A stretch of 64,000 nucleotides of DNA from Nereocystis luetkeana (Eukaryota > Sar > Phaeophyceae > Laminariales > Laminariaceae): assembly GCA_031213475.1 (NCBI GenBank), contig JARUPZ010000025.1, positions 496,001 to 560,000 on the forward strand. Direction: 5' to 3'. The translations under genes were made by a program, and so were the position numbers. Positions 9,839-60,798 of the stretch are shown piece by piece. Within the stretch, counting starts at the first letter, position 1; the number at the start of each line of letters is the position of its first letter. Under the pieces are notes generated by a model. The model saw nothing but the letters and a program-made list of their open reading frames with translations, made no database searches and was not told the DNA's origin.

Positions 9839-9915
9839 GAGTCAAGACACATCTGGTACCTTGGGGGCAACGCCACGGCAGGGGTGTTGCTGTATTGTAC
9901 GAGCTCCCCACACTA

Positions 9916-11787: not shown

Positions 11788-11789
11788 CT

Positions 11790-32170: not shown

Positions 32171-32478
32171 AACAAAGAATTATCGGACTTCCTGCTCGAT
32201 AACGACATCAGGCTCATTTTTTTTATGAAACCGTCAAAACGAACGCCTCGCAACTCTGTAAGCGGAATCAAAAGAGGTGTTTTTCATAGCAAAAAACACA
32301 AAAGTCTCTCACAACAACGCCGCCAGCTTGGTCTCCAAACAGCCACAGGTGAGCCCCTACAGCCGTGTGCGGGTGTCCCGACACAAGGTAGAGGTAAAAC
32401 TGTAGCTGTCTTGCCCGGCGAGGCTCCACATGGTCCGCTTTCAGTAGTGCAAGTAAAAAGTTTGGCGTGTGTTTTTTT
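32171..32478 (+). repeat. Left terminal inverted repeat of the giant transposon
   Basis: It pairs with 58474-58780. The two differ by a handful of substitutions, a 4-base indel near GAGGCTCCACATGG and a short insertion near CAGTACGTAGTGC. High similarity suggests a recent insertion or conversion. Confidence 0.95.
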
Positions 32479-34839
32479 GCCCTCATCATCACACCTGTCA
32501 CAGGTTTATGTCCCGAACGGCACGAAGCAACAAGCAGCACAGAACAGTCTACAGTACGGCACCCACCTGCGGCAAACGCAAGGTGGCAGGCAGGGCAGCA
32601 CCACCCCAAAAAACGCTTAGCTCGTTTTTACATCTGCATGGCTGCCCGTCGTCAATAGCTGGTGTCTGTGACCCACCGCGACCTCTCTCCTTCTTCTTGT
32701 CCTGATGTAAGTTACCGTTTTTTTGTTGTTTCATTTTTTTTTTTTCGCGCCGCGCGAGGTACTTTGGGTTGGGCGTCAGTACTGCTACTACAGCAGTTCG
32801 TAGTATATACTCGTATTAATAGTAGTAATGACACGAGGTAGCACTATTCATAGTCGTACTTGGCAACAAGCAGTCCTACGGCAGTACCCCAACGCAAAGC
32901 TGATTCCTGGCGAGTTATAGTAGGGGGCGAAACTATTATGAGCTCGTCGTGCACGACCATCCAGGTAAGAATAATTGAACGGGGAGAGAAGAATATCCAT
33001 GATGATTACGTTATGTTGCTACACATTTACATTTGTACAGCAGTACATACATACATCCAGTACTCGTACGAGTATACCTGGTACCAAATACGATGTTTTT
33101 TTTTATTTGTGAGAACGTAACAACAGCAACGAAAGCAAGGAGCAACAGCGGCAACCGCAGCAGCTTCGTGAAGTCCTATGATACGTACTTGTAACCCGTT
33201 GAACTCTGTAACAATTACCGCCCGTTGTACCAAGCAGTAGTATAGTTGCCCCTGTAAAACGTAGTAAATAATGTCATAGCGCAACCAGCGCATCTCTGTG
33301 AGAGCTCATCGAGGAATTCAGCACTACTAGACTGTATACTGTAGGCAAGTGGTTAATGCGCTGCGCTCACAGGGCTCCAAATGCAGCAAAGTTGAAATGT
33401 TGAAATTGTGCTGTCAAACCGGCCAAGAATGGCTCCCCGTTCGTTTAAGTGATAAGAACTCTAATACAATTATTTTGAACGCAGAACAACAGAAGCTGCG
33501 TTGCCGTGTTTTTCCCTACTTTTTTTTTTACGTACGGTATAATTATTGAGTTCGAGTCGTGGGTTTAAATGGTAATTCTCCACCCTACGCGTACGTATAT
33601 AAGTTTCCATTCTTTTTGTGGTCTGTTGTTTTTCTTCGATTTATCCTCTGGTGCTCCTTCTGCTTATGCCGCTACTGCTGCAACTGCTGCTGCTGCTTTC
33701 GCTGTTGGCGCTAGAAGCATGTATGCGATATCCTTTACTGGGTAAGTCAGGACGACGGTCCCCTTCTATCCTAATATTATACGAAGTATACTCTTGCGTA
33801 GTAGAATCGTTTATGTACTCCAAAACTAAGTATTTTTTACTAATAGAATCCCCGCTAAATAGCTTTAGCTCTCCCGAACGCCACCCGACCCCCTGCGGCC
33901 ACGCGATCAAGCCACGCCCGTCCCACACCACAACCCTCGGTTCTCCCGGCGAAAGAACCGGCGCCGCGGCCGAACTCGGACAGGGGGGTGCGTCTATAAT
34001 AGGAGCCCTTCTGAGGGACGGGATGTTCTCTCTCCGGGATGGCCGGGGGTCATACATTGGGTGGTAATCTCTGTATTTGATGACAACAAATTGGGTCTAC
34101 TCACTTACGGTCAACTTAAAGTACTGTGTCCATGAAGTTACACCCTTGATACATACTTGTACGTAGCACGAACGCTCACACAACATCCCTTTATTGCGTG
34201 TATTTCTTTGTCGTTGGCAGCGTATCTCACAGTCTACGAGTGGGACCACGGCAAGATTAATTTCCAAGCATTGAGCTCTTTTGGACCCGACGATATCCAA
34301 CGCCAGACCAAGGACGGGGTTTGAGACCACAGCGTGCCGATGCATGGAGTACGAAGCGTTGGCTTTGAATATTATGATCGACTCTCCTATTTACTAGGAA
34401 GCGAGTGCGTGCTGTGGAACTCCTCGCTTTATATGGCCTGTGCGCATGTTAGCGAAAACGGTGGTGTGGAAGAAATGACAGCTAGTATAGTGGCGTTACC
34501 GGTGGGACCGTGACGACGTTTGTAAGTCCGTCTGTAGCTTCGCACATATATACTGAGGGGAGGTTGTTGGAATAGGTGTATTTCGTCATCCCTCCTCCCA
34601 CAGGAATCTTCCTGTGGCATAATTCTTGGCTAGCTTGTTCACGCGTAGCCGATGAAGGCAAAGTTTTTTGTGAAGTAGACGGTTCATTAAATCGGTCTGT
34701 GTTGGATTCCGTTGACCCGTCAATTGCTGGTGTCCCCATTAGGAACATCCGGCAGTTGAAGAGCCAACTGGGAGACGGGAACCGCGAGTATTGTGGCCCC
34801 GACTATCGCGTTCAGAATGTGGGTTGAGATCCCCCTTCC
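32479..34839. other. Left subterminal region of the giant transposon
   Basis: No confident gene. On the minus strand 34748-34482 is an 88-codon frame with coding-like composition but no recognisable family. 33860-33990 is GC-rich and shares short blocks with 22.32-22.46 kb. Confidence 0.4.
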
Positions 34840-35190
34840 TCCCCTGTTTAATTGTTTTTTGCATGGTTAGTGTGGGCCGAATGTGTCTGTGGTTCCGCTT
34901 GCTTGCTGGTGGGTTGGGATCGTAGATTGGTTGTGGGCCAGCGTTGGCTTCACCCCCACTTCTTCTGGGTTTGAAGTCATATTTTTGGGTGTGGGGTGGG
35001 TCGTGGGTAGGTGTGATTGTTGTTTGTTAGCGTTGATAGCGTGGTTTCAAACCCCAATTCCTCTTGTTTTCATGTTTCCCCTATATTTTGGCGGATGGAA
35101 TATTAAGTTAGTTGCGTAACACTACTACTTTTGTGTTTTTAGTCGCGGGTAGCTGGATGGGTAGTGGGTAAGCGTGGGCAGGTGGGTGTA
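34840..35190. repeat. G/T-rich subterminal repeats, left side
   Basis: The plus strand is strongly G/T-biased, with repeated GTGGG, GGTTTGAAG and AGCGTTGGCTTCACCCCC phrases. These are the reverse complement of the A/C-rich repeats at 54.86-55.66 kb. For example TGTGGGCCAGCGTTGG matches the complement of the ACGCTGACCCACTAC motif there. Confidence 0.65.
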
Positions 35191-35503
35191 GGCTGCGTTA
35201 CGCATACATGATACCTGGGACGTAACAATACACAGTTAGTTTAGGGTTTTCCGCTTGTGTCGCAGCCGGCTGGTGTAGCAGCGTGCCACGTGCACATGTC
35301 GTACATAATACTGCATTTTTAGATGTGTTCTGAGCGCCGTGTTCCTGTCTTGTCGAAATGTATTTCAGGGCCAAAGCCAAAGACAGGTACTACACCTGTT
35401 GTGTTTTAGCCAAAATATAATTCATATTTAAGCCAAGGAAAAATAATACGCCACGAACTGTGTTTTCGGTCATGAGAAGTCATAAATGTTTCATTGTTCG
35501 CGT

Positions 35504-35686
35504 CTAAACAGTGAGTGTACGGCCTACAAAATCTGAATACTTTAGTTTCCATGGGGGTGTAGGCACCATGCGCTCCACTCGGACCTGCGTTAGTCCACCA
35601 GGCTTTGATTTTTCAACCACGGCGGGCGCGTCAAGAGTACGTTTGCTGTGCCCCCCCGTCGCCAGTTTTGAAAGCCTCTTGGCCAT
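35504..35686 (-). CDS. Possible small exon or 60-codon gene, unknown
   Basis: The minus-strand frame runs ATG to TAG with a basic N-terminus (MAKRLSKLATGGHSKR) and hydrophilic, coding-like codon use. The opposite strand is also open between a good acceptor (TCTAAACAG, 35511) and a good donor (GTAAGTAC, 35710), so the true strand is undecided. I recognise no family. It could be an exon of an undetected gene between the left TIR and the DUF7869 gene. Confidence 0.25.
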   Translation of the reverse strand: MAKRLSKLATGGHSKRTLDAPAVVEKSKPGGLTQVRVERMVPTPPWKLKYSDFVGRTLTV

Positions 35687-36006
35687 CAGTAAGCTTCCTG
35701 TAGCGAAGTAAGTACTACCAATTGTTTACTACCGGTATTATTGTGTTAGCTTGTACAACATTGGGCACGGAATGACTCCAACGCCAATGATCACAACCAA
35801 AGTTCCAAGTAATGGGTATCATCGTATGCTATACCGATTGTTTATTATGTAGTATACTCAGAGCCTCGCTGCTGGTGACCTTTATACGTCGTACCAAGGA
35901 GTCTTAATGTATATGAAGATTGGTTGTGTTTCTCGTGATATGTTTTAAACTGTCGTAAGGAATCAGTGCACTGGTGAACACCACTACACAACGGAAATCT
36001 GTGTCG

Positions 36007-36860
36007 CTATTCTACAGCACATCTTGTTTTAGTCATCTGATAGTTGCGCGCTAAACTACCTTGCTTGGTGTTCGAAAACTGTAACAATGACAAGTTCCTC
36101 AATATTTTTGCAGGCGAACCACCTGCGTACCATTTTTCATTTTTGAAACCGTGGTCGTCGCACTCAGTCGCGTCACCCAATACACGGGGGAAAACGTAAA
36201 TTGCCATCCATTGCGAGTGAGGCGGCGGGCGAGCGGCACAACTACAAACCTCAGACCACAGGTATATCAGGTGATCTCGACTGCTGGCGTATCTCCCGGA
36301 TTGAGACGTGTCAGACTTATCATCACCCAAACAAAAAAAAAAAAAAACGGCGTATGGAATACGTGTACGTATACATGTAATACGTTTTTGTGGAAAACAC
36401 ATCATGAGCGCCAACATTATAAAGGAGTTGCTACTAATAATAGTAGGAACGGTGCTCCATCTCGAAAGGGTTGCGTGGTCAAGGTAAAAACGAAGACACA
36501 ACTCACAAAAGAGTGCGCCCCCCCCCCCCCGCCTTCCCTCCTCAAGCCGTCTCCTTACACTTCCCCTTTCCATCCTCCTCCTCCTTGCACCTCCTATAAC
36601 TATGCACTACTACCTGGTATTGAACAAGCTATCACATACCACCGCTCAATCACTCACCTGGGTGCCGCGACACACCCCGGCTCTTTCCGACCCAGCCCAC
36701 GCAGGTGTCACGGCAACGACCTACCATTCAAGGTTCAGACCACAACTTCTTCGGTCTGTGTCCCCGACTGCTAAGACGACTCCTAGCCTGAGAAGTTTCG
36801 GATTTATCGTTACCTCCCCCCCCACCCCGCCTGCCGGAAGCCGCCTCCCCACACCCTGGT
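36007..36860. other. Spacer with duplicated remnants downstream of the DUF7869 gene
   Basis: On the minus strand two related stretches occur, one near 36330-36260 (phrase DKSDTSQSGRYASSRDH) and one near 36815-36750 (DKSETSQARSRLSSRGH). A further phrase FPRVLGDATECDDHG lies near 36200-36150 and resembles ARLLGDATNFEDHG on the plus strand at 54.18 kb. These look like remnants of one duplicated exon. C-homopolymers lie at 36520 and 36878. Confidence 0.5.
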
Positions 36861-39800
36861 CTAATATCGCCGTCGACCCCCCCCCCCCCCCCCCTCCCCC
36901 TCGTCGCCCTTCCGCTTTTCTTCTTCTTCTTCTTCCGCTTGCTCGTCGTCGTCCTCGTCCTCGTCGTCCTCGTCTTCATCCTCGTCGTCCTCGTCGTCCT
37001 CGTCGTCCTCGTTGTTCTCCTCGCCCTCCCCGTCCTCCCCGTCCTCCTCGTCCTCCTCGTCCTCCTCGTCCTCCTCGTCCTCCTCCTCCTTGTCATCGTT
37101 GAGTGGAGATCGTGCCCTCCTTCTCCGCCCTTCACCTCTGTCACCCCTGTCATCGTCTCCTCCTCCGGATTGGGGTTGGCTTTCCATGGCATCCTTGAGG
37201 GTTTGTTTGACCTGGGCAGGGACCTTTTTTCCACCCCCGATCAAAGCGGGACACGTAGCTACGATTCCGCACACGGGCTCCCATGAGACGTCTTTCAGAT
37301 ACACTTTTTGACGCGATCCCGGACGGCTCCCGCCTTGGGGAGCCACCTCGATTTCGTACGCCGCATTGAACGTCGCCTTTGCATAAGCTTCAAATGAAGT
37401 AGTCGCCGCGTCGTCGATCAACGCCTTACTAGGGGTGTACCAGTGAAGAGATACCTCCTTCTGCCCGTCTGTGCCTACCCGTGTGTCTTGCACTTTCCCC
37501 ATCAGGAATGGTGCGTCTACCGGCATAAAAAAGGCGAAACTGCCTACTGCGCCATGCTCGCAGTCCTCTGCATCCTTCTGCTGGCGCACTCGGCTGGCGC
37601 CAGGGGCTTGTCGCTGCTGCTGCAGGTTTTTGTCGCCATCGAAACATTCTTCGTCCGAGCTGTTGTGTTCGTCGCTAGGGTGTCCTTTCCCTCTAGTGTC
37701 GTCTCCGCTGTCACTGCTGTCGGAGTCGCCTTCGTCGTCCCCTATTAAGTTGTGGTCTACAGGCAGCCATGTGGTGTCCAGGTCGAACATGCGGTCACCT
37801 GTCGAGTTTAGAATTCGCAAGCTGTCGGCGTGCTCGTCCTTGACTCTGTGTTGCCTCTCCTCGTCTGTTACGGGTACGTAGGCAAACGGATGATGTATTG
37901 GTTGAAAAAACACAAACTATGAAGTGGTCGTCTCATGCCTAAACTATATACGCAAGCATCACCATCATAACCTGCTAAACACCGGCAAAAGTTGCTGTAG
38001 CCACTACTAGTCAGCAGGTATGTGCAACGTGCATCGACAAGAGGGCATGGACAAAACAAGGACAATATTCATTATGCAACCATTGGGCCGTGATGACATG
38101 TGACACGACCATATCACCATCGGCGATATCGTCAGTACTCAGCTATGACGCCATCGTCAGTACTCAGCTATGACGCCCTTCCTCGGTACTCACCACCAGG
38201 AAATGCGGCGGCGAGTTTCCTCCATGATGCACGTTGTCGCTGTTCGATAAGGTGGATGACATTAGGGTGGACCACCTTGAGGGAATACGGCGGCGCACCT
38301 TCCAGGCGCACGGAACCAGCACGCATGATGCGCCAGCCTTTGAAGCCTTCTCCGGCCCCCACCGTCTTTCCGTCCGCACTAAAGCCTAGCCAGTTGGAAT
38401 CGTGCATTTTTACCTTCACCTTGACCAACATGTTAGACCCCTCCTTGTATATTTGGAATGCCTGGAACTTGGTGATGTTGGGAACCCGGTGTGTGACGGG
38501 AGATACGAGGTCCTTGAAGTTCCCAAGATTTTCCAGCGTGCGGCACTTCACTGAAAGCGTTAAGTACGCACTCGCGAAGATCTCGGCAAGGTGCTCTCGT
38601 GAAAAGACGTTGCGCCCGCTCACTGCTCTTGCAAAACTTCGGGGATAAAGATAAAAGCAAATAATGCAAGGAAGGTCGTTGTCGAGGGCAGAGGCTTCAA
38701 CTACATACATGTATGTGTATTCCATGAAGACGTCAGAGTGAATAAACCACCCCAAAAAGCAATGCGTGGAAGCAAGCAACTTATGATGGCCATCTGTCGT
38801 CTTTTATTTTGTACACTATGAAACTGAAACTGCGATTCTGAATCGTTCTTTCTGATGCCTTCCATGTCTGCAGATTCTGACACGTACATAATGTGTATGG
38901 GTTGATTGACGTCACCACAGCAAACAATACTCGCGATTCGTGTCTGCTACTTACTACGTGGGGAAAGAGTAGCACAGGATATGTTTTTTAATGTATTGCT
39001 CAGAACCTAAGGCATGTAACGTCATTGGCTATTTTCTACGTACTAACCCCTGTTCCACGCAGTGAACATTGTTTTTACAATCGCAGCCCGTCGCTACCCT
39101 GATTGACGAAACAATGGCGAGACTATCAACTAGCGCCTACCTGCCGACTTCGATATACATGAAGACAAATCATGGGCATGCAAACAGCTTCTTCTACTGG
39201 TATGTACTCGTTTGCAGTGTTCATAGGGCAATGCTCACCAGGAGAAGATCTGGTCGATCAGGATGTGAGTGTGGCCGACCATCATGAAGCAGAGGGTGAC
39301 TGTCCTCATGGTCCCCCTAGCAACCATCGCGGCCAAGAAGCCCATGATGTGGTTGTTCTTGTTCTCTGACACGGTATTGTCCATCTGGATGAACACATCC
39401 CCAAGGGGGCTGTTCCACTGCAAGCAGAGCTCCATGAACTGCATGTACAGCGCCGTGCACACTAGGTTGCTGCCTGGAAACATGAACACCAAGTAAGTGC
39501 AGGAACTATAAATAACTGAGTGAGTCTAGGTGGGCTGATTGACGCATTAAACGCTTGCACGAGCGGGACTCGCAAGTCATTGCGTCATATATAACAAAGT
39601 AAAACATGTACTGGTGTGCCATTTTGAGGGGAAGAAGTGCACCCCGCTAGAGGAATGCGCGCACTGACATTACTGCATACATACCACGCACTGACATAAA
39701 AATAACCCTTAATTAAGCAAAAAAACGCACAGTGAGCACGCATTCGTTAACTGGCTGCCCGCTCGCCTATCTGCCCCCTAATTGACGAAACCTCAGCAAG

Positions 39801-42800
39801 GACAACTACACATTCCTATGAACCGATATTGTACGTACAGCAGTAGTGCTGTGACCGTGGGCAGTCGGCCGCACGTCATGCTGAAGCATGGACGGTCACT
39901 CGTGATACAATGGACATCATCATGAATTGATACTCGGCGACGAACGACTGGCGTCGCACCTGTGCCAAGTATCTGAGGGGTCATGAAAATGTTCATCATC
40001 ACGCCTGTCACAAGCACGCCGTAGATCTTCTGTCGCTCAGCGTAGCCCCTGGAACGCCGGTGGACAGGGTGCACGACAGACGACGTGTGTGTGTGGTATA
40101 TAATAGGTGCGTCCTGATCAAATAGCATTGAGGGGTGTCATAATGATGAAGTCGCGCGTCATACAATACAATCAACAGTGAGCTTACTGTTGTTGTAGTG
40201 TCTGGAGCAGTAGTACCATACATATCGTGGAGCAATCGGTTGTTACTTACTTGTCATCAATGCCGTGAGCATTGTGGGCAGACAGAGGGGTCGCAAAGTT
40301 GCTCTGGTTCGCAGCATCGACCATGATATATACCAGCTTCTCCGGTTCACCGTTCGCCCTGGCGTTCTCCGCGTTCGCTTTGATTCGGGCGATGCAGTCA
40401 CGGTCGTTGGAAACATCCTGCCGCAGACGACAGGGACAATACGGATAAGTGGTTCGGGTAGAGAACGATATCCACAGCAAATTAAAATAAAGCATGGCTC
40501 TCGCCTATTTTCAAGCTCATGGCACTATTTCGTTTGTAACGCCCGAACATCAATGTCCATACATACAATCGCCTTTGACCATATAAGTCCGAAACTGCGA
40601 ATTAATGTTACACGCTAAAAAACATAACAGATCGAAATTGTTGTAAAACATGGGCTACACGACTACGGGGAGTATCAGGCTACATCCAGAAAAGCTGGGC
40701 AGCTTACCTCAATGTGGGCATTGTACTCTCGCCAGATCTGTTCCCTCTCCACTTCGTTCTGTGTGCCCCTGGAACCGGCCTGTCCGTGGAGTTTTTCCTT
40801 CAAGAGCGTGCAGGTCTGACAGAGCATGAAATCGCCGTGTGGCTTCAACTTCAGGTGCGGGAAGCGGGACCTCCACACCTTGTTGAAGTAGTCGGACGTA
40901 GCCAGAGCTTCGGTTAGACCGGCTGGGTCTTTGGCGAAGACTCGGCGTTGCTCTTTGTGGTATTCGTCGTACAGCTCCTGCGGCAGTTAAGATGAAACAT
41001 ACAAGCAAGGTACAACGAGACCTTTATTATTTTATTACGAAGATTCGGCGCATATTGCATATCAGGATGCAAGAGGGGTGATAATAGTAGTATGGAGGTT
41101 GATTCGTCAGCTACCTGGGATACTACGTAGTGCCGCGTTGTCAAATCAAGCAGATAGGAGGGGTGCGGTGGCAACAAGGGGGCCGTATATGTTTGGGTTG
41201 ATATTATACAACCTGGGTGGTGGACCGCGTGGCACCTACGGCTCGCATGCAACGCGCTACAGTCCGAGGTTGAGGTGCAGGTGATGGTGCAGAAAAGGAC
41301 ATAAGTAAGGTTCTTTGAGGACGGGCGACTATATGCGATCGTGGTTCCATTAATAATTATACTTGTTGTGTTGGCTACACTACGAATTGATTTTAACTTC
41401 GCCGATAATAAAGCAAACGAAACAAATCACCAACCAAAAAGTACAGGTCCACCACTCACAGGCACGGAAGCAGTCACCCACGTATCAACCGACCGACCCA
41501 CCCACCAACACTCACCTACGCACCAACCGACCCACACACTCTTTCACCCACCCACCCAAACACCATCGATCACCACCACCATCACTACTACGTACAGTAC
41601 CGAGCAACAACAATTAAATAGGATGGTGTACTGTGTGTATCATCATCATACGTACGGCGTGTATGTCGAGTTGTATCCTTACTGTAGTGAGTTCTATGAA
41701 CACACGTCGTACACATATATATATATATATGCCCAGGATGTACATAAGTATCAACACAGCAATTTCAGCTACGTACCCACATATTTCTTGTTTGTTGTAG
41801 GTAGCATGCAATAACGCCGTAATTCTGAGTATTTCAACCGTCAATGTGTAGTATCCGGCATCAGGTATCAAATACAGCAGTAATTTAGTTGCTTGCTGTA
41901 GTATGGGCTCACGTTCTTCTTGTGGAGATATAGGCAGCTGTCGCCCGAGTTCGGCATTTTCTGCGCAAAAACATCCTCAAAGCGAGCGAGGAAGCCGACG
42001 ATGCGGTCCAACTTTGGATGGTCTCGTGTCGCACGAACCTTCATCCTTAGAAAACAACACAAGACAGGACGGAGCAGCACCATAACAGTAGTAAGTAGCA
42101 TGTTTTACATCCCTTTCATCGATAGGTGTGACTGGTCTATCCATATAAATACATTCAGCAGTTTATAAGCCAGCTACAACAGGTATCTCTATAAATTTGT
42201 ACGTGCTCGTTCGTACCAGTATTTAATTTATAACAAGTACGAGTACGTATCATACGTATATACCAGGTATCCGAAAGGGTATGTACGCCAATAATAGCAA
42301 TCTAATGGACACGATCAATAAAAAATACTCGAATCATCGTGGCTGACCGATGGTTGTCGTACCTGCTATCCGACGAGTTAGATGCCTTGCACTTGCTGAT
42401 GAGGCTCTCGGACACCCCGAATAACCCTCGGAATGCTATGTTGCATACAGGCGTGTTCGCGGCCAGCATGCTACCCTTCCCGAGCTTCGCCAAAGGGACG
42501 TGGTCGTTCACAAAACGTCGTCGATCCTTTTCCGTCAAAAACCCGCGAAAGATCTCTTGCTCCCTTCTCAGTAACTCTGGGTTGTGCAGAGGGCTATCAT
42601 CGCCTGTCGAGCAGAACAGGGACGCGCAGTTAAGCCCACAGCACCGCGCTTCCTTTCCTTTCTTCTTCCCAGTCCCCTTTCCCACCTCTTCGTTGTGTAG
42701 CTTCTCCGCCTTGAGCTTCTCTTCCAGGCGCGCCGCGGGTAAAGGAGGGGGCCAATTACGTTTGGAGCGCTTCGGCGCGGTCGGGAGGTCGTTGTTGTTG

Positions 42801-43075
42801 TTGTTGCCTCCCGGTTTGAATAGTGGGGACCGCTTCTTCCCCCTCCTCTCCTCCTCCCTTCGACGCTGCTGTTGTTCCTGTTTTGCTTCTTTCTCGGGCG
42901 TGGGTGGGCCAAATAAGTACTTCGCCCACGCCGCCAGCGGCATCCTTGGAGCTGGGTTTTTTTGCTGCTGGCTCCCTTGTTGTTGTTGTTGTTGTTGTTG
43001 TGGTTGTGTTGCTGCGAAGTTGGTGCATAGCCACGAGCGTTCGTTCATGGAAAGAGCACTGAGCACACACGACAT
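36861..43075 (-). CDS. DUF7869-type protein, candidate DDE transposase of the giant transposon
   Basis: Nine exons join in frame with GT..AG introns: 43075-42363, 42045-41913, 40977-40708, 40417-40251, 40048-39960, 39473-39239, 39196-39141, 38622-38194, 37864-36861, giving 1031 aa. Residues about 24-45 are a glutamine tract. A Cys cluster (CCGLNCASLFC) precedes an N-terminal helical region. The central part has YIMVDAANQSN (D406), FIQMDNTVSENKNN (D489, E494) and MVGHTHILIDQIFS (H525, H527, D531). This is the signature of the DUF7869 family (usual form VGHTHEDIDQ.FS), whose fold is thought to be RNase H-like, so D406-D489-D531 may be the metal-binding triad. The C-terminus (about 870-1025) is a long Asp/Glu tract encoded by a TCCTCG-type microsatellite, ending beside a C20 run where the frame is least certain. 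The start could instead be the Met ten codons downstream. Transposase function is inferred from being the only recombinase-like gene in the element. Confidence 0.87.
36935..37090 (-). repeat. Coding microsatellite for an acidic tract
   Basis: Imperfect TCCTCG/TCCTCC triplet-hexamer repeats encode runs of Glu and Asp in the last exon of the DUF7869-type gene. A poly-C run adjoins at 36878-36897. Confidence 0.8.
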
Positions 43076-43977: not shown

Positions 43978-46900
43978 ATGGCCGCCCGCAATGACACGAG
44001 GACGCGGGCCAGGAAGGGCGTGGGTTCTTCGGCCTCTCGGGGTGGCTCTCCACCTGTTGTCGTTGACGCTGTTGCAGATGCTCTCCGTAATCGTGGACTC
44101 CACGAGTGGGCTATACCCCTGAAGAACATCACGTGCACCGAGCACTGCAGGCCAACGAATCCCGGCTCTGTACAAGATCTCGTGGCCCGAATCGGTCAAG
44201 TCGGCTGGATGCCGACAGCTTTGCCGCAGGTAACAGTTCCTGGCGTCCCCGAAGGTGAAGAAATGACCGACGAGCTCGCAGCAACGCTGGAAGTCTTCGT
44301 GTTGGACGGTAACCATCGTGTCAAGGCGGCACAGCAGGTCTATGCCAACGACCCGGACAAGACCATCCGGTGCTCGTGCTATCGTGATATCGACTGCACT
44401 TTCACGAAGAAAATCATCTCGGATGGTGAGAAAAATCCCATACATGCATACATCATGTTGAAATATATAATGGTGGCACACAGCAGTAGTAGAAAGCAGT
44501 AGTCGGGGTATTGTAGTACAACAACAGCAGTAGTAGTAGTACAACAACAGCAGTAGTAGTACTGTAGTAGTAGTATTAATAGTACTGCTGTAGTAGTACG
44601 TACTACTGCTGTATGTAGTACCTCGATATGATGTGACGTATCATTCGTACGTCGTACATATATATATTATAACACAAACAAGAAGCTGCTATTAATACGT
44701 ACGTATCACGAGTATATTGAGCAGACCGATAGTATATTGCTAATAATAGTAATAATGGTGGATGTGCAACCGCCTGCCTGGTCGTCCACGGAAGACGCCC
44801 CAGTCAACCAACAACAACAACCACCACAGCAGAACGTGTTGTTGTCGTTTCCCATCACTCGGAGAATTTATTTACAGTAGTAGTACTGTAGTAGCACCAT
44901 ACCTGGGGCGTATCGCACCAGTTACATATACCCAGTAGTCAGGGAGTGCTGCAACAACACAGTACAACAACTAACTGTTTAGCAGCAGCTGGAGTACTAC
45001 AGGCAGTATCTGTAGTAAGTACTGTAGTAAACTAGAACAAAACTTCTGGTACGTATTTCCTTTCGATGCAAGGGGGCTTGTCTCCCGCGTGCAAGATTGA
45101 ACGTAACGTGGATAATGTAGGAAATCTGGAGTACCTCGAGAACGATACTTACTTGTTTGTCTGTATGCAAGGCGTATTTGTATGAGTACAACAGTGAATG
45201 AAAATAGAGTTATGTTCGTATGCAAGGCGCTTCGCCCGGGGGACGGTGCTATCTCGCTAAAAGAAAAAAAAACAAAGTGAGAAAACCTAAACGATGAGAC
45301 ATGCTGGGGTAGATGTAACGAGGTCTGCGGTAGAGGCGTGGACGGCGCCTGTTAGCTGTGTCATATGCTCATTTTGTTTCGTACAAAAATCTTCGCCTCG
45401 TATACGTATGAAATATACGTGGCTGACACACGTTTTCGTTTTTTGTTTTTTTTTGTGTTCCACAGCATGCAACCTTGTACAGGAGACGCACGCGAAGCGC
45501 ACAACCTACGATCAGGTGTTCTTCTTCTCAACCATGATTACGGAGGTCGAGCGGCAGTGGAGCGCGGACTCCCGCCGCAAGAAAGAGGTTAAATGCGCGG
45601 ATTTAAAAGCCTGCTGGAAGCGGGTGAGCGTGTATGGTTGTTGCCTGCTGTGCGTTAACAGACAGGCATATATACATGTTATCGTGTTGTCTGTGTCTGC
45701 CTAGTTAATACGGAGAGGGTGTACATATATCTCATTATTATGCGTGGTGGGTAGGGTGCTAGTAGTACGGCGCCTTGCCGTCAGGCATACGTAAACTTAC
45801 ATGCGGATATATTAATAAACGTCAAAGGCATGTGTACCAGTATGTTGAATACAGTCAGTACATGTCTCCTACGAAGAACTTCCTTCTGCATATTACTGTT
45901 TGGTTGACGAAATGAGATAAGGGCGTGTACAACGTGTATTGTTCTGTTTTGTTGGTGGTGATTCGGATATCGATCCGGATCCGTTGTAGACTTCTGGGGA
46001 GTGACATATTATGGATGGTGGCTTTTATGTTGCCGACGTCGGATTGAGTGGCGGGGATTCTATTCCGCCGCTTAGCTTTCTGGTATAATATGATGTGGCG
46101 CAAGCGGAAGCATCTTATCGTTGTACATTATAATCGATATTTGTGTGTCCTTCCTGTAAGCTTGTGTGCTCTCCTCTTGACCGTCCTCGACTGATACCTG
46201 CCCGAGCCTAGACACTTCCAACATTTTATATTCAGATTGTCTGACAACTTCGTCAAATTCGGAAAAGAGCGACCGAACGATAATGCGAGCGGGCGACCTA
46301 ACCACACAGTGAACGGGCACTACAGTAGCTTCAGCCCGACAGCCCAAACCCGACTTTTAAATGGTAGAAGAGGTGCCATATTCCGCGCTCGAGCCTCGAC
46401 AAGCGCGGGCCGAATCGGCGCGAGAAAGCGGCGCCCCCCGTACGATCCCCGCCCCACCCGCCCAGCCGCCTGACCCACATCGAACACCGTGGCCGAAATG
46501 CAACAGGACGGGCATGTTTTCGTGTCCACACCGTTTGAAGTAAGCCTCTGGCATACAACCCATGGCCAACAAGAAAGACAACGACGATTTTCGCTTTTTT
46601 TCGTATATTGTTTTTACCATTACTACGATTACTATAATACTATATATATGCAGTAGATGTCTTTCAAAATGAGGGAGCCCATCCTTAGTATATTCCCTGT
46701 CAACCAATGATGTTGGTATTTGTCCATAAAACACTGACATGTATTCTTTCAATATTTCAGGTAGGATCACCGCCAAGCGACTCTTCGCTGCGCCAATGGC
46801 TTGAAGTTATCCGATCGTGCAGCTCGGAAGCTCTGCTGTCGCTAAGGACCATGACAGAAAAAGCGGTACCCGGGTTCGATCGCATCACCAAGAACTTTCT

Positions 46901-49900
46901 GCACGACTCTTTGTTCCGACAGCTGACGCCAGAGCCACGGAAGCAAGCGCTGGTTCTCGAAATTGTGGCCAGGTAAGTTTGAGCTACCCACCCTCACAAC
47001 GCCCGTTGTGGTACGAGTAGATGCATTCGAAGCAGATAACTGGTATAATAAACTGTTGGCGCAATACACATATTTTGGAGTCAGTCTTGACCGCCGTCTT
47101 CTACCGCTAATTAGCAAATGTAAGACTGGCTGGAATCACATTAAAACATAGTTTAGTTAACATACAGGTAGTGGTTTGTCGTACGCCATCAACTTTATCC
47201 CATAGGTACACAAATGTATGGCGATGCCGTCAAACACGTAACGTTCTAGTAAACACTAATCGAACGAAGTCTGCTCGTCGTATGATGTTATGTTTTTTAC
47301 AGGTACCCCAAGAGTGGCGCGGGCAAGGTCGATCTCAAGCCAGTTTTGCGACAGGCGGAGGACGTAGCGAAGTGGATCCGGGGCATCGAGCTCATCGTGC
47401 CTAGGGAACAGTGGTCGACAGGCCTGACGGAGTAAGTGTGCGTGTATGTATGTATCCTAGTATACTATTTGTAAAGGATGTATCGCGCATTGTCATCCCG
47501 TTCAGGCAGCGGATCGGATGGCGTTTGCTTTCCCTTTTCCATTTATGTGTAATACGCCCTGCTAGATTATAAGGTATATCGTACCCACCCCACACGCCCT
47601 CCTTAGGTTAATAGTGCAGATTGAGTGGGCGTCGGTGCTTCGCGCTTGGTGCAAGCAATGCCTACCTGGTGGATGAAAACCCAACGTGAAACCCAACGTG
47701 CTCTGGCCCGGTTTTGTAGGAATGCGAGGGTCTATGGCCATACAACTACGGCCGTGTACGGCATGAGTACACCCCCCGCCCTCCCTGCCCCACCCCCCCC
47801 GCCCTCTTCTGCGTATTACCTTCCTGAATGTCCCGGTGCGAAACACACAACTTTCTCACATTGTTTCCTGGACCATGCTCGCTCCGCACCAGTGCGGTCA
47901 ACAAATTTGCAATTGACGAGCCCGGCCACTACGCGAACTACATCAAACCTCACCAGCAGCACGTGGACACTGACCTGCAAAAACTGCAGAAAGGGCTTCC
48001 GGCGCACGCACCAGAACTCGACGATGCTGACGCCGACATCATTCGAGCGGATCCACTTCCACAGATCCGTACAGTGAGTCCGCGCTCCAGCTATCTCACG
48101 TTCGAACGCAGTAGTAGCGTTAGGTTGAGGAGGAAATACTCGGCACGATGATGTTGGGCATGCATGCAGAATGTTAAAATCAATCACACGTGAAGTCTCT
48201 TCGAGTACGCCTCCAAATGACCACATCTTGTTCAGTCGCTCTAACACCTGGCCCATAATATTTTCGCCGTTCTGTTTATTATGGTGTCTTCCTGCGGGTA
48301 TCAGGCGCTTCGGAGTGATGCCAGCCTAAGACCGTTTCTGGACGCGTACGACAAGAGATACGAGGACACCAAGAACACCGTCAACGCCCTCAAGCTTCAA
48401 ATAGTCCCCCCTGCCCTCCCTCGCGCTGCGAAGGGTAAGAGGGGCGGCGAAGGCAAAGGCAAAGGCAAGGGCGATGACGTGGGCGACGACGACAAGGGCG
48501 ACGACAAGGACGACCACAATAGCGACGATGATGACGACGACACCTATGTTCCGTGTGCTTTTTGCCGAGTGCCCGATACTACGAGGTAACACGAAACGTC
48601 CGAACTGGAGGTACTTTCGCAACCTAGCTGTACATTAGTGCCAACAACACCTGAGGCTTACTCTTAAGCTTGTTTATCGTCTGATTTACGTAAAACAGGT
48701 ACATGCACCCTTCGGTCTACAGCACCTCCGGTGTTCGTGCTGCGCTTGTCTCCTACTACGATAGAGAAACACGAGCTTCGTGGTCATAAACAAGGAGACA
48801 GATTTATTTGCGAATCCAAGCTATAACGAGAATGTTCGTTCGATTATTGTCTTACCGACGTAATGGACCCGAAACGATACCAACCAACATCCCAGTTTTT
48901 TTCTGTGTAGCCTTCTTCACGTTTGTATGGTTGCCCCCTCCGAACGACCTTACACCCCCTCCGCTATCCCCGAGCCTCTCAAACAGACGCACACAACGTG
49001 GGCAGCGCGTAATATCGGCAACAAAAATACATGAATGAGTGTACGTCATATCCCTGGATTATGTGCTTGACCCGCACTCGTGGACGTACAGGTATAAATG
49101 CGTGAATTGCAACGCACACCACGCCGGCGATTGCAAGGGCGCCACTATCGTCGGTGAAGATGAACGAGATCCTAGACGGCAATGCATTGACTGCAGTAAG
49201 ACCAGGGGCAAAACTTCCAACAAACGAAAAGGTAAAAGTACGGGCGATGACGACGAAGCTGGACTTTCCAGTTCTTCGGGGAAGGGGGCGGGAAAGGAGA
49301 GGGGGAAGCGGAGCAAGACTGGCGCTACACCCGGGTCTCCGAAAAAGATTCCCAAACTGCCGTCGGCAACTGGATTGGAGGGCGACCTCAAAATCGAGCG
49401 CAGGTACGTGAATACTACAAACAGGAGGTAGTGGTAGTGCGCTGCTTACGCCGTACCAGGTATATACGTCCTGGCCGCTATGAGTGCGGCGTAGTAAACC
49501 TTGCGTTTGCGTGAAACAACTGTTGTTTCTAGTTTCCCCTTGTGTTCGTTGTGTACAGTATCTGTTCTATGTACAGAACAACAACGTGTTTCCTTTGCTA
49601 GCCATTACTTACTGACTGAAACAGACATTGTTTTGTTGTGGTAGTGATTGTATATATATAGACGTGCGTCCCAACTACGCCCTTGGTTTGCACAGGTCGG
49701 AGAACACGTGCCTACACGAGCTCACGCCGCTGAGTGCGGACTTCCCGGAAAAAGACATGTTCAACATCAAGGTCCGGAGGCATGCCATGTTGATGTTCGT
49801 CTCCCTCAGCCACAACAACCAGGAACATCTTCTTCAGGACAACACTGCCTCCTCAAGCCACCTGAAGAGGCTTCTGTACCACGTCTGCAAGGAGCTCTTG

Positions 49901-52900
49901 CACCCCAAGGGGACCGTCATCGTGTCTTTGCCCGTCCCGTACTACAAGCACGTAGGCCGCATTGCCGGTGAGCTCGCGTGATCTGTACACTATGATGGTT
50001 GCTAATTGCCTGAGACGGTTGCCTGTTTTTTTCTGTATGCGTTAGCATCATTGTTTTGGTTGGTTATTGCTTTCGCTGTTCGTAGTTCCACCGAGAGGGA
50101 TGCCGATTTATTTACTTCGGCGTGGGTTACGTATCCCCCTGATATTGCGGCCCGCGGTACACTCACCGATTTTATGTGGTTCTTGTATATTTCCCGCGTG
50201 CAGAGTATCTCAAGCAGTCCGGACTCGGGCTTGTGGTAGAGGACAACGGGTTGGTGGTGGAGTACGGTTCGAGGGGAGGGGGGCTCACCGCTGAATACAA
50301 GAAGAAGCACCTCGCTGGTTCCCTCGACTTCTACCTCGTCGCTCACCACAGTACCACGAACAAGGACGGTCAATCGGAATTCAAGTGCAACACGCAGGTG
50401 ACGCCGCAGAACTTCCCTGGCAGAGCGACTGCAACACAGCCTGGGAGTTCAGCGTCTGGTACACCACGTTCTACACAGGCGTTGATGTATGATGTGCCAT
50501 ACCGGGGGTCAACACGCGCTTTCCACAACAACGTGGCAAGCTTCGGAATACAGCGGTATGTTAGCAATACTACAAACGCAATACCCCGTGACGCGGGGGG
50601 AGGGTTGTATTAATGGTGAAGTTCTGTGTGACAGGAGCGCGTCGTGGCAACTCTGACCCGGCGTACCTCTCATACACTTTTGTAGTTACAGGTCGGGGTT
50701 GAATATTAGCCATTATTTGTCAACCGGTCCGGCTGATAAGGACTCAGGTCAATATTTGCATGTAGTATCCGTGCGAACCTATACCGTTCGAGCCCCCGTC
50801 GCACCGTCGTGTGTTCTCCTCGCAACCTTTAGTTTCACTTCTCAGGGGGATACCGTCGTGACGTTCAGCGCGGAAACGGATGGCGTGATCGAATGTGCGC
50901 TGCACTACGGGAGGAAGTTAGAGGTTTTCGTTGCAGTTGGCGACAAAGTGGAAGAGGTGGCAAACAGGATGGAGGAAGCATGGGAAGCGCCATGGAGGGA
51001 GGGGAAGTTTACTGTGAGTACGACTGAATAGATACATTGTTTTTCATGGTATTTAAATGCAAGGTTCTTCTGTCTACGTAATGCCTTTTCTTATCTGATA
51101 TCTAGCTCCTCGCCCAAGTTAACCATACGTATGGGTGAGGGGGGGGGGGTGTTTTGTGTGAGTTTCGAGTACACCCTAGCGACGAAATTGTACGTGAATA
51201 TTAAAGTAGCATATATATGCTCGAGAGGCAGTTGCGTGTGAATATTTTCTTACCATATGTATTCCCATTCGTCTTGACGCGCGCAGCGGAACGCGTCGAA
51301 CAGCAGTTTCAAATACATCGCCCCTGGCTCTCTCCCGGAGGGTATCCCGCTTGACACGACGCCAAGACGAGTTGCCTCCGGTGCTGGCGCTGATAAGTCC
51401 CCCGAACATCTGCTGGAATATGCCAAAGAGCTTGCTTCTTCCTTTGGATGGGAAATCAAGGTGTGTTCACCGGTGGATAATAGCGCAGACTGCGGTTTAT
51501 CGCTGTTTCTGAGGCTTGACGCGAAAATACGACCCATCATATCGGAATCTGTTTGTGTGCAAAATAAAAATAATTGGCAGTTATATACCAGCCTGAGTTC
51601 GATCGGCATGATCCCTTGAACCGTGTCCCATTGTTAATAGGCCCGGCGAATTTGCTTTTATTTATATCGTCCCATTTGCTTTTTTGTGGCTATTTCTTTC
51701 GTTTTTTAATGAAATAAACCACAAGTACATCATCATAATCTGGACGAATAAGCAAACAGACGCAAACAGGTGCCCAAAAACCCTCGGTTGGGTTCCACGG
51801 ATAGCTGTCCACTCCATCTGTCCAACGATGCCACATGAAGCCGGAAGTATGGGGTTGCAAACGAGGTACCAGATTAACGCGGGGGGTTGGTGTACCGCTC
51901 TTGGGGGCGCTGGTATTTCATGAACAAAGTATATTAATTGTCGCAAAAGTTAAATCAGACTTTCACAGCCCGAAAGGTGAGCTTCCCAGTGATGCCAAAT
52001 ACGCATATTTCCTAGCAGGTTGTGGGTCGGAACGCGCTCCCCCGTGCTCAATGGAATGTTTTTAAGGAAAAGAGTTTACCCACCTAGTCCTCTCTTACAA
52101 CCTCATTATTTCGGCAATACGCGGGATCGTTTCAAAGCTAAAGTCGTTAGGTTGCTGTTATCGAACCTGCCCACCTGGTTTTCGTATCCCCAAATGTGTA
52201 GGTGTGGCGATTTATCCGCTCAGCTGCAAGTACGTTCCTGAAAAAAACATAGTGGACATAGTAGGACAAAAATAACGATCCCGACGCCAATAAATTCACG
52301 TATCAGGGCTTATTAACAATGGGCCACCGTCATAATAGTACGCGAAGCACCAGGCGTTATTAAAAACGCTGACGGGATTATTTATTATTAGTTCTTCAAC
52401 GCCAGATGCTGTAGGCTCCCTGACGTTATAGTGATGGTGTACCACTTCGGCGACGCATTGGTCACTCTCCGAAACTCCCTCCCTTTTGCCGTTCTCGGAA
52501 CTGTGGGACAGACGAGCGCCGATGACAACTTGGTCTGCCTGCACACAGCCGACGGCGTCCACTACAAGATTGGCAGCATGGATATTCCCATTTGGGGTAG
52601 CACGGTCATCTTTAACACACCCCAGGATGCCCTCCAGTCACTTGACCCCGACAAGGACGACTTGTCCCTTCAGTTCGTGCGGCTCGTACTGGTCGCAGAC
52701 TACCATCTACTGCAGAGTTTGTGCGTCCACGGCAAGGAAGGTGTGCGGTCCACCGAAGCCGGGCTCTACATTAAAGTGTCGCCGACCTGCCCGGCGTACT
52801 ACGCCATGTGGGACGACTCGACAGAAAAAACATCACACGAGGTTGCCAGCTATCTCGGGCGAAGCGAGAAACGCGCCGCGTGGATGGACTCCTTCAACGA

Positions 52901-53117
52901 CTCATCTGGGAAGACACCAGCTCCCGTTAAGCTCAAGGTCTGCAACACCATTCAAGTATGTGAGAATGGAACACCGGTCAAGGTCAGGCCTGGTGTGAGT
53001 GTCGTCCGTAGTGGGTGGTGCGTTGAAGGCGGCGCCGGCGCTCTGCTTGAAGGTGTGGGGACTGGGGGAGCCCAACAAGTGGATATCCCGGAGGGCGCTG
53101 TCTCGGCGGTGGAATAA
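43978..53117 (+). CDS. ParB/Srx-like + Cys/His cluster + degenerate beta-class DNA methyltransferase-like protein
   Basis: Twelve exons join in frame (43978-44425, 45466-45623, 46761-46972, 47303-47431, 47893-48073, 48305-48585, 49092-49403, 49696-49967, 50204-50555, 50692-51013, 51287-51460, 52392-53117), giving 1188 aa. Residues 45-135 resemble a ParB/sulfiredoxin fold, with ARIGQVGWMP and FVLDGNHRVKAA (DGNHR at 110-114). Residues 410-450 are a Lys/Gly/Asp-rich linker. Residues 460-505 carry CAFC, CVNC, NAHHAGDC and CIDC, probably a zinc site. About 590-890 follow the permuted methyltransferase order: a motif-IV position reading FVSLSHNN instead of DPPY, then HPKGTVIVSLPVPYY, then GDTVVTFSAETDG where active enzymes have GDxVLDPFAGSG, then HYGRKLEV. 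Key catalytic residues are lost, so it may bind rather than methylate DNA. ParB plus methyltransferase pairing is known from phage and bacterial proteins. The last ~240 residues match nothing I know. Confidence 0.82.
44426..45465 (+). other. Intron 1 with simple-sequence runs
   Basis: A 1040-bp intron (GTGAG...CACAG) rich in CAGCAGTAGTAG-type triplets at 44520-44620 and near 44870-45030. No nested gene was seen. Confidence 0.75.
47610..47790. repeat. X-associated repeat inside an intron of the ParB/methyltransferase-like gene
   Basis: GGTGCTTCGCGCTTGGTGCA, GATGAAAACCCAACGTG, ATGCGAGGGTCTATGGCC and ACAACTACGGCCGT match the segments at 7380-7480 and 13400-13530. It lies wholly within the intron 47432-47892, so the insertion does not disrupt coding. 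Confidence 0.75.
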
Positions 53118-53420
53118 GCGCGGGAGGGGCTGTGGGTCGACAAACTGGTCAGCTCCATCAGCGACGTGGCCTGTGGGGAAACCGGCTCCCGTGAAGCTGG
53201 ACGTCTGCAATAAACATTATTCAAGCGAAGCGAATATGGTGCAGTGGTCAAGGTCAACCCTGGCGTGAGTGGCGACCACCGTGGGGGTGTGACCACGCCG
53301 ACGCCGGCACCCTAAAGTGCTGGGGGCGGGGGGAGGATAACATGAGGGCGCCGTGGATAACGTCTCGGCGGCGGAATAAGCGCGCGGGGGGTAATGCGGT
53401 GATGGGGAGGTGGCGCTGAT
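52905..53420 (+). repeat. Degenerate tandem duplication over the 3' end of the gene
   Basis: The block beginning GGGAAGACACCAGCTCCCGT (coding TPAPVKLKVCN) is repeated about 255 bp later from 53167 as GGGGAAACCGGCTCCCGTGA (PAPVKLDVCN). It continues through GGTCAAGGTCAACCCTGGCG and GCGCCGTGG-type blocks. The stop codon of the gene lies in the first unit, and the second is frame-broken, so it is a 3' remnant. Confidence 0.8.
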
Positions 53421-54859: not shown

Positions 54860-55660
54860 GCAACGTAGCACCAACACCAAGCCGCTCAATCATGCTGATC
54901 CACCACCAATTCACCAACAATCGGCGAAAAACAAAGCGTTTTATAACCCTACACCACCAGGTGCTGCACACACGAAACCACTCCCCCACTACGAATAATC
55001 CACGTAGCCACCCGATGCAACAAAAATAAATTAGAGGGAGCGGGGTTCGAACCAAAGGTCACTCTTAACTGTGGAATAACGTAAGCCAAGGGAACGTTCA
55101 CTCAAACACCCAACTACTCTGCCACTACCAATCCACTTCCTACCCACCTACCCATTAACACACACTACACTAACAAAAAATCAAAAGCACGAAAAACGAC
55201 AGGAAGCGGGGGTTGACCTCACGCTGACCCACTACCGATCAACCTACCCCCCCACCCAGCCGACAAGCCCTCGGGAAAAAAAGGAAGGAAGGGGGACTTG
55301 AACCCACGCTGACCCACTACAGTTCCAACTACACTCAAACAAAATTGATACGTAATGTTTCCCCTAAATCCCCACACACGACCAACCACTCATTCTCTAC
55401 CACCTTAACGAACCCCAACCCACCCACTGACGCCACCGAAAAAAATAAAAAAATAAAAATAACGAAACAAAATATGAAAGGAAGGGGGCTTGGAACACAC
55501 ACGGACCCACTCCCAATCCACCCACCCAGGAGCCAGACTGTACGTGTCACACCAACTATCAACGAGCCACCCACTTACACCACCCAAAAAGGAAACAAAA
55601 AAACAACAAAAAAAGACTACAGAGAAAAAATGGGATTCGAACCCACGAGTACCCTCTAAC
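54860..55660. repeat. A/C-rich subterminal repeats, right side
   Basis: The plus strand is strongly A/C-biased. The unit GGGGGACTTGAACCCACGCT followed by GACCCACTAC recurs with variation at about 55200, 55290 and 55485. GGGTTCGAACC and GGGATTCGAACCC cores lie at 55040 and 55633. These are inverted relative to 34.84-35.19 kb. The cores resemble a tRNA T-arm, but there is no cloverleaf. Confidence 0.68.
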
Positions 55661-55794
55661 AATAAAAAACCTCAGTCCAGACACGGAATTAAACCACGCA
55701 CGCGCTCACCCCGATCGAAAATAGGACAGAAAACAAAAGCAGGGGAGCAAGGGGGGTCTTGGCTCACTTTTCAACCCACAGAGTCGAGGCCCAT

Positions 55795-56966
55795 CTAATC
55801 GCAGTTCCCGTCTTCCCGTTTGCGCTTCGAAGGACGGCTCTGGTAAAGCTCTGCGGTTTCGCCTACGTTTCTCTCTGATTCTCCACACAAAAGCTTCAAC
55901 TGTTGAGTACTCGCAACACGAAGGAGTCGAACGAACTCCGCGGCATGACCTTTACCCACACTGTCAAGATAGCCCCTGTAGGCGCGTGCCGCATCGCTTG
56001 CTGTCGCTTCTTCGCGGCTGTTGAACACGAGCAGCGAACCCTAAATTGGGACAACGCCAGGGCTCGACGCCTGACCCTTCATCGTGCGCAGTGTGTCGCA
56101 GCTTTGACCCTGCAGAATAATCGGTGGTGCGAAACATAACGGAGTGGTCGTAGTTATGAATGGCTTCCTGCATCAGTATACTTACAACAGTGGAGACCGA
56201 AGCCGCACTGCAGACATTACAAAAACAGTTAAACGCACATACTAAGTGCCAATACATAAATAGATACCTGGTAAAGACAGACGATCTATACCTACCAGCA
56301 GAGATATGCCATGTAGAGTACATTTTGCACCACTTACTTGCAGCTATTGTATTCTTTATATGGTCATCACATACATGGTCATGTACCCAACTCACCTCAA
56401 ATTACTGCAATGATACGTTTCGGGTCCATTCGTCAGCCTACCATACAGTGTGCTACTACTAAAAAACCAAACACGTTGATCAGCTGCACCTGTAGACGGT
56501 CGATGGCGTACCCGATGTCACGCGCGAAGTCTTTCGCGACCCTTAAAGCTGCAGATCCCCGAGGTTGGGGATCGTCTGAAATTGCGCGGTACTTCCGGTG
56601 CACGCTGTACTTCAAAAGAATGATCGGCGGGGTGATATCGGAGATGGGTACACCCCGCTTGCTATTTGGGCAGGACGTGGTGACCATCTTTGACTCGTCG
56701 TACCAAGGATAATTAGTCCACTGCAGTACATCGTGTTCACCGCCGTCATGCCCTTGGTGTCGTATGGTGACGCGTCCGTCCTTTTCCCTCAACCTTCTCC
56801 ACTTCACCCCATCCGTGTCGTAAGGTACTACTACCTTGCCTTTGGCGCTGTTGATGCCCTCCAGTGGACGCGCGACTACATCGATGCATCTCACACCCCG
56901 TTCACGAAAGGTAAAGTGCAGCAAAGCATTATCCCCCTCCTGTTGTATCCGGGCGGCAGACGCCAT
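55795..56966 (-). CDS. Two-exon orphan protein, 240 aa
   Basis: Exon 1 (56966-56490) starts at ATG and ends CGTCTACAG before GTGCAG. Exon 2 (56040-55795) follows the acceptor CCCAATTTAG. Both are phase 0 and join to 240 aa ending SRPSKRKREDGNCD, a basic patch like a nuclear localisation signal. Exon 1 is hydrophilic (DDPQPRGSAALRVAKDFARD near its end). I recognise no domain. The frame is open upstream of the ATG, so an additional 5' exon is possible. It lies between the subterminal repeats and the right TIR of the giant transposon and reads toward the ParB/methyltransferase-like gene, so it is probable cargo or an accessory protein. The opposite strand also has open frames here, but they lack a consistent splice structure. 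Confidence 0.62.
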
Positions 56967-57645
56967 TTCGTCTGCAGCATCAATGCTACCGCACCGATCG
57001 CCTGTAGTTTGTTGTGCTTGGCGCTTGATGCGTTGCGGTAGAAGAAAAATGGAGTTTTACAACCGATGGAAAATGCTTCTTCTATTGAGCACCTTAGAGA
57101 GAAAGAACGACAGAGAGACAGCAAACACAAGTTGAACGGGTTACCATCAGGACATACTATGTGTCACACACAGCTTGCAAAGATGAGCATCAGGATCATT
57201 TAGATCTAACAGCTGATGCTTTATTATTTTGTTCATACCAGGTGCAATGTAAATAGATAGAAATGTAGCGGGAGCAAGTAGCAACCAGCTAATGATGGGC
57301 AAACTACAGCAGTACTATTAATAGGTAGTATTTATCCTGACGGAGAATTGGGGTGCTGTTTTGTTCAAAAAAACATATACGTGCAAACACTCTTCAAACG
57401 ATAACAAGGCTGGTGGCTGCAAAGCCTTGATAACTGCACGGAGCTGAACAATTTTTTCGGGGACATACATTTTGGGGACACACTACGTTCTTGGAATGTG
57501 AATGGCACCTGGTACTTATTTGAAGCAAGAAAAGGGCTGTACGAGAAATATATACATGCACGCAAACAGAGCCTGTGATGGGTGTACAATTCAATAATGC
57601 TGTGGGATCAGGACGACAAGAGTCAATGAAAAATTTTTGTCGTAG

Positions 57646-57806
57646 ACACGCTACCGCCGCATTCACGAAACAAGGGAAGGCGTCACATTCATGCACTTCT
57701 TGGACGTCCTGCACCGCGGCCAAATGACGCCAACAACAAACTTCAAAGTTGTCACTGCCGCCATTTCTATCCTGGTGGACACCGTGTGTAATGGTTTTCT
57801 GCCGAT
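57646..57806 (+). CDS. Possible isolated exon, unknown
   Basis: Between an acceptor TTTGTCGTAG and a donor GTAAGAGG the plus strand encodes a coherent stretch (TRYRRIHETREGVTFMHFLD onward, about 54 residues, ending NGFLPM). No partner exon or family was recognised. If read without the donor, a stop follows at once. It may be an exon of a further gene near the right TIR or a decayed copy. Confidence 0.3.
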
Positions 57807-58473
57807 GTAAGAGGCATATCTCTTACGTCGGTCATCCAACTATTAATAGAGGAACAGGGTACATATATGCGAGTATAACAGAAAGGTGGAAGTAGAGTGA
57901 CACACCCCTCTGTTGTACCCGTATGTCGGTGCACCACTGCTGTACGATGTACAGCAGTGTACTATGTACATGATATTGGTATCTGTGAGGGTAGGTTCCC
58001 CGGTTCGACTCGACATCTATGGCACTCTCCCTGGCAGCGTGTAGCACACGCAAGGTTTTGGTATATATATATAGGATCGGTATCATACGGACGATCCCAC
58101 GACGTACATGACTTACTCGATAATTAGTCCGCCTGGGTAAAGAGGGGAAACAACAACAAAAAGACAGCGCGGGCGGCAAAACAAATCGGTAGTACTCACA
58201 GCAGCTGTGACGAATTTTGTTTTTATAAAAATACTTGGACAAGTCGTCATCGTCTGGTGATGATCAGGGCTGAGGACAACTGCAATGAGATATATATAGA
58301 GGTTAAACAGATCCAATACGAAGCTGGGCAAGGGGCTGAGTGTGCTGCCCTGGCTTCGGGGTGTCGATGCCCTGACTGCCTTCGTGCGTTCCAATGGTCC
58401 CGCGCGATCGATTTTGCTTCTTGATCATTAGCAAGGGACACACCACGAGAAGAAAGAAGGAAGCCGAAAACAG

Positions 58474-58780
58474 AAAAAAAAGCACACCAACTTTTTATTT
58501 GCACTACGTACTGAAAGCGGACCAGAGCCTCGCTGGGCAAGACAGCTACAGTTTTACTTCTACCTTGTGTCGGGACACCCGCACACGGCTGTAGGGGCTC
58601 ACCTGTGGCTGTTTGGAGACCAAGCTGGCGGTGTTGTTGTGAGAGACTTTTGTGTTTTTAGCTATGAAAAACACCTCTTTTGATTCCGCTTACAGAGTTG
58701 CGAGGCGTTCGTTTTGACGGTTTCATAGAAAAAATGAGCCTGATGTCGTTATCGAGCAGGAAGTCCGATAATTCTTTGTT
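58474..58780 (-). repeat. Right terminal inverted repeat of the giant transposon
   Basis: It is complementary to 32171-32478 and ends AATTCTTTGTT against the AAGG duplication. Confidence 0.95.
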
Positions 58781-60540: not shown

Positions 60541-60550
60541 GTACCAGGTA

Positions 60551-60724
<174 letters not shown>

Positions 60725-60798
60725 TAATTCAACATGTTTTTGGTCCACCTTTCACCACCGCGCTCGACGCACACGCCACCAAATCCAGTCCCGGCGAC

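Follow-up and report, generated by a model that had tools for sequence, protein, structure and literature searches.

The locus described here raises the question of whether a 26.6-kb segment that splits a host long terminal repeat (LTR) in Nereocystis luetkeana is a mobile element and, if so, what moves it and to which type it belongs. We analysed a 64,000-nucleotide window (contig C25, 496001-560000) and searched the window's own genome, 465 Mb in total. An earlier note, made from the letters of the window, had proposed a giant DNA transposon with inverted ends of about 307 bp, AAGG on both sides, and a DUF7869-type enzyme. The ends, a 4-bp target-site duplication, an empty site and further copies all bear this proposal out. 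We consider it highly probable that the segment is a giant brown-algal DNA transposon of the cut-and-paste kind, active in the recent past and belonging to the type known from Ectocarpus as Sola1. Coordinates of all features are given in Table 1.

The element is bounded by inverted repeats of about 308 bp and flanked on each side by AAGG, as the earlier note had described. No inverted pair was found at E 1e-3 in a mononucleotide-shuffled version of the window (n=1), and on this control we rejected a chance inverted repeat as the source of the ends. The real window contains three further inverted pairs of at least 150 bp at 75% identity or above. Inverted ends alone are therefore no proof of a transposon, and carry weight here only when taken with the duplication and the empty site. 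When the element and one AAGG are removed, the two LTR parts rejoin into a sequence that closely matches the intact sister LTR (Table 1), so the note's remark that the LTR becomes whole again also holds.

The same contig also holds an unoccupied version of the insertion site, at a distance of about 37 kb. Here the left flank (C25:486001-490891, 99.90% identity) and the right flank (C25:490888-506649, 99.95% and 99.86%) are directly joined, overlapping by the 4 bp AAGG, with no element between them. The site belongs to a duplicated segment in which C25:486001-506649 corresponds to 523275-528170 plus 554781-570440 at 99.85-99.95% identity, and which falls partly within the window (1-10649). The segment may have been duplicated recently, or the assembly may have placed two haplotypes in tandem. 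In either case the empty copy is still a site without the element.

The same ends occur elsewhere in the genome. The left 330 bp gave 12 matches, comprising five left-type ends, five right-type ends and two weak relics. Three copies, on three contigs, retain both ends; they have the terminal inverted repeats in common, and all three are flanked by exact 4-bp duplications (AAGG in the window, TTAT on C27 and AAGT on C15), in line with what the earlier note had suggested looking for. The C27 copy is 26,658 bp long and matches the window copy at 99.5% over 25.4 kb and at 98.3% over the first 1.28 kb. Its rejoined flanks align without a break over the junction at 38 of the 42 listed places of the target repeat, at 81-91% identity (40 of 1075 candidates were scored; two of the 42 rows are the copy's own flanks and two are short). 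The C15 copy (C15:3604175-3625423) is 21.2 kb long and 99.9% identical, and lacks element positions 8730-14078, which hold the 5' parts of genes A and B. It is probably a natural non-autonomous derivative, and its internal deletion, provided that it predates insertion, points to mobilisation in trans. The presence of two further two-ended copies with other duplications, mostly 99.5-99.9% identical, points to recent movement. Copies on C17 and C23 are about 97% identical and have a 5 kb flank in common at 98.6%, which suggests a single insertion that was later duplicated, or two haplotypes. Each carries one stop in gene A and one in gene B relative to the window's frame. On C9, a right end alone was found within the 4 kb examined. 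The right junction of the window copy also appears on a redundant contig, C1005.

Three multi-exon genes on both strands, as the earlier note had claimed, are modelled within the element, with GT-AG intron borders: A (8 exons), B (12) and C (2). The models came from a codon-based gene finder, for which open stretches chosen by hand served as the training set, followed by homologue-guided correction. The models of A and B align with brown-algal proteins across exon joins, and that of C comes from the gene finder only. The borders of exons 9, 10 and 12 of gene B were corrected with the Ectocarpus homologue, and the end of gene C exon 2 was set at the next stop. Plus-strand models at 33666-37748 and 39284-39496, a first exon of gene A at 44445-43934, and minus-strand exons of gene C past exon 2 were discarded as antisense to better models or of low complexity.

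Gene A carries the DUF7869 domain, which the earlier note had named as the likely transposase. Pfam PF25273 (DUF7869) matches the open frame around exon 6 at 3.4e-22; a further scan gave a DUF7869 match at 1.3e-33. A search with gene A returned three proteins at 60-65% identity, including ones from Ectocarpus and (by name) Undaria, aligned across the exon joins. A profile search yielded 39 relatives among 7999 scored candidates, those with a named source coming from Pylaiella, Ectocarpus, Ascophyllum, Choristocarpus and (by code) Undaria. The structure model of one brown-algal homologue, P0001, has an RNase-H-like core with three aspartates, which match D397, D480 and D522 in gene A. Among the 50 matches listed between this model and solved structures, 40 are retroviral integrases and 10 are transposases. 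Since the modelled fold of the homologue resembles these enzymes, the DUF7869 protein is very probably the transposase of the element, and the note's suggestion gains from both the domain matches and the fold.

Gene B lies on the opposite strand. By eye, its start looks ParB-like and the part further on looks like a beta-class DNA methyltransferase. The start gave weak matches only (PHROG ParB-like partition protein, 0.086; NCBIfam MzaC, 0.024; DGQHR_dnd_1, 0.049; Pfam DUF1015, 0.037), with no library match above cut-off and no PDB match to the ParB-like region. For the later part, searches of Pfam, PHROG and NCBIfam found no match, and the PDB gave nothing meaningful. The usual DNA methyltransferase motif, [DNS]PP[YFW], is absent from gene B and from its Ectocarpus relatives P0004 and P0005. 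Relatives in Ectocarpus align with 45% of the query, at 38-41% identity. In the Nereocystis genome, two of the three diverged relatives examined (C1 and C29) carry a DUF7869 protein and a B protein on opposite strands. Controls with reversed proteins found nothing in this search. The transposase pieces of the diverged relatives are 24-48% identical. In the third relative, on C21, B is absent up to a distance of about 9 kb, and B-like pieces lie about 26-29 kb off. On C24, a degenerate end of this type has B-like pieces some 3-5 kb away. The likely role of the gene B protein is to bind the element, perhaps marking or bridging it. Gene C has no Pfam match and could be cargo or a further helper.

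Substitutions between copies bear on whether the genes are maintained. Across A, B and C, the window and C27 copies differ by nine synonymous and six non-synonymous changes (binomial p 0.002), a pattern consistent with selection on protein function. The same test for gene B against C17 and C23 gave p 0.012 and 0.009. Counting against such selection, gene A showed no signal in the comparisons with C17 and C23 (p 0.41 and 0.42), and exon 1 of gene A in the C27 copy has five extra bases.

In the mechanism that we propose, the gene A protein, with a predicted RNase-H-like fold and D-D-D active site, would bind the inverted ends, cut the element out and join it to a staggered 4-bp target, and repair of that target would give the 4-bp duplications. 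The ParB-like protein of gene B would have a conserved accessory role, binding the DNA of the element or marking it. A bolder version, which we think rather unlikely, is a two-component system in which the DUF7869 transposase is obligatorily paired with the ParB-like protein, and the latter, by spreading along the element or bridging it, brings together two ends that are 26 kb apart. The methyltransferase-like half, without the usual catalytic motif, would then be a DNA-binding or structural module.

Several points weigh against a Sola1-type transposon moved by its own DUF7869 protein, and each lends something to a different explanation. DUF7869 carries no transposase name in Pfam and is not mentioned by name in the literature searched; the link to Sola1 was drawn by description, and the ParB reading of gene B was made by eye. 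These points would suit a separate, undescribed superfamily using DUF7869, whose likeness to the giant Ectocarpus transposon Sola1-1_Ec32 arose when the two independently captured similar accessory genes. We judge this unlikely, given the same opposite-strand layout, the lengths of the two accessory proteins (1090 and 1104 aa), the 4-bp duplication, and the presence in Ectocarpus of homologues of both DUF7869 and gene B.

The C15 copy moved even though its gene A lacks the 5' part, unless that part was lost after insertion, and this would be expected if the DUF7869 protein were cargo and an enzyme encoded elsewhere moved the element. Such an arrangement is very improbable in view of the DDE/D-type fold of the DUF7869 homologue and of the 10 open reading frames and three gene models scanned, which contain no match to another known transposase. 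The last of the adverse points concerns the assembly. C25 holds two copies of the flanking segment, perhaps as tandem haplotypes, and the 25 kb contig C1005 is redundant (99.996% identical to C25:542697-568043), as might be seen if an assembly join or haplotype artefact mimicked an insertion. We give this explanation almost no credence, and reject an assembly join, on the basis of the empty site on C25, which is a true empty site even if haplotypic, the exact duplications around three two-ended copies on three contigs, and the second comparison of filled and empty sites on C27.

Table 1. Features of the transposon and its insertion site, in window coordinates.
Feature	Positions	Strand	Details
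Whole transposon	32171..58780	.	26,610 bp; supported by its inverted ends and 4-bp duplication, by unoccupied sites and by additional copies
Left terminal inverted repeat	32171..32478	+	94.2% identity to right end over 312 columns (32171-32478 vs 58780-58474)
Right terminal inverted repeat	58474..58780	-	Pairs with left end
Target-site duplication AAGG, left	32167..32170	.	
Target-site duplication AAGG, right	58781..58784	.	
Interrupted host LTR, left part	31890..32170	.	98.9% to 28235-28515
Interrupted host LTR, right part	58781..59340	.	560/560 identical to 28512-29071
Intact sister LTR (reference)	28235..29071	.	834/837 identical to LTR rejoined from 31890-32170 and 58785-59340
Gene A, DUF7869	36861..43048	-	1008 aa; exons 43048-42363, 42045-41913, 40977-40708, 40417-40251, 40048-39960, 39473-39239, 38636-38194, 37864-36861
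Exon 6 of gene A	39239..39473	-	Holds D480 and D522 of the proposed aspartate triad, the second and third; exon 4 holds D397, the first
Gene B	43978..53117	+	1090 aa; exons 43978-44425, 45466-45623, 46761-46972, 47303-47431, 47893-48073, 48305-48552, 49092-49403, 49696-49967, 50204-50555, 50833-51013, 51287-51460, 52512-53117
Exon 1 of gene B	43978..44425	+	ParB-like by eye (VLDGNHR); relatives on C1, C29
Gene C	55795..56966	-	245 aa; exons 56966-56475, 56040-55795; open in window copy, stop-free in C27 and C15

Other repeats are present in the window outside the transposon. An inverted pair of 396 bp at 98.7% identity (23159-23554 and 26859-27254) surrounds a long open frame on the minus strand (24644-26860) that is Copia Gag-Pol-like by eye; LTRs should be direct and this pair is inverted, which points to an odd rearranged element. 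A second inverted pair (7006-7474 and 13426-13898; about 490 columns, 78%) is possibly an older DNA element. Positions 62291-62576 form an imperfect palindrome of 286 bp at 81%. A simple tandem array at 60548-60725, whose frames read as runs of Thr-His and Cys-Val, would be a CA/GT-type repeat.

The locus adds another brown alga with a giant transposon that carries a putative ParB-like accessory gene, and its copies are recent, with coding regions intact enough for testing. It also ties the Pfam domain DUF7869 to a predicted DDE/D-type fold, which would help in naming unassigned algal proteins. The pairing of transposase and gene B in diverged relatives makes a ParB-like role in eukaryotic transposons directly testable.

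Polinton/Maverick, Starship and Teratorn are giant eukaryotic mobile elements. The Polinton duplication is 6 bp and that of piggyBac/Teratorn is TTAA, whereas the duplications here are AAGG, AAGT and TTAT. None of their hallmarks (protein-primed polymerase and retroviral-type integrase for Polinton, the DUF3435 tyrosine recombinase captain for Starship, piggyBac for Teratorn) was found in the 10 open reading frames and three gene models scanned. The earlier note's statement that these genes are absent stands for that set, which does not comprise every open reading frame. All three were set aside on the lack of hallmark domains in the models scanned and on the duplications, which differ from those of Polinton and piggyBac/Teratorn. 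Sola1 makes 4-bp duplications, those of KDZ and EnSpm differ in length, and no KDZ or EnSpm domain was seen in the gene models scanned. Sola1 elements also have terminal inverted repeats common to their copies and a transposase with an RNase-H-like DDE/D core; our copies agree in the repeats and the duplications, and the modelled homologue of gene A agrees in the core.

Giant KDZ, EnSpm and Sola-1 transposons have been reported in Ectocarpus (Dinatale et al. 2025, PMC12477816). In the accessible part of that report, algal KDZ and EnSpm giants exceed 10 kb, reach about 30 kb and carry accessory genes; our element is likewise a DNA transposon of more than 10 kb with accessory genes. Like the Sola superfamily, as the accessible part of PMC3627910 describes Sola2, it has terminal inverted repeats and 4-bp duplications, but its repeats are about 308 bp long rather than 12-21 bp. 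The same part of PMC12477816 describes Sola1-1_Ec32 as a 21.5 kb transposon in which a gene on the other strand from the transposase encodes a 1104-aa protein that combines ParB-like and DNA methyltransferase domains. The authors propose that proteins of this sort may bind the transposon that encodes them and modify it. Our element differs in being 5 kb longer, with gene C in addition, and in that both domains of gene B are recognised by eye only; the Ectocarpus relatives of gene B are not equated with the Sola1-1_Ec32 protein. Both are giant brown-algal DNA transposons of a similar size class with a gene of about 1100 aa opposite the transposase, B here on the plus strand and A on the minus. 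Because of this close fit we file the element as a putative new Sola1-type member, likened to Sola1-1_Ec32 by description and not by comparison with a curated Sola1 transposase. The undescribed class suggested by the earlier note is not borne out: as far as the accessible part of PMC12477816 describes it, a giant Sola-1 element with an opposite-strand gene of this length is already on record in Ectocarpus.

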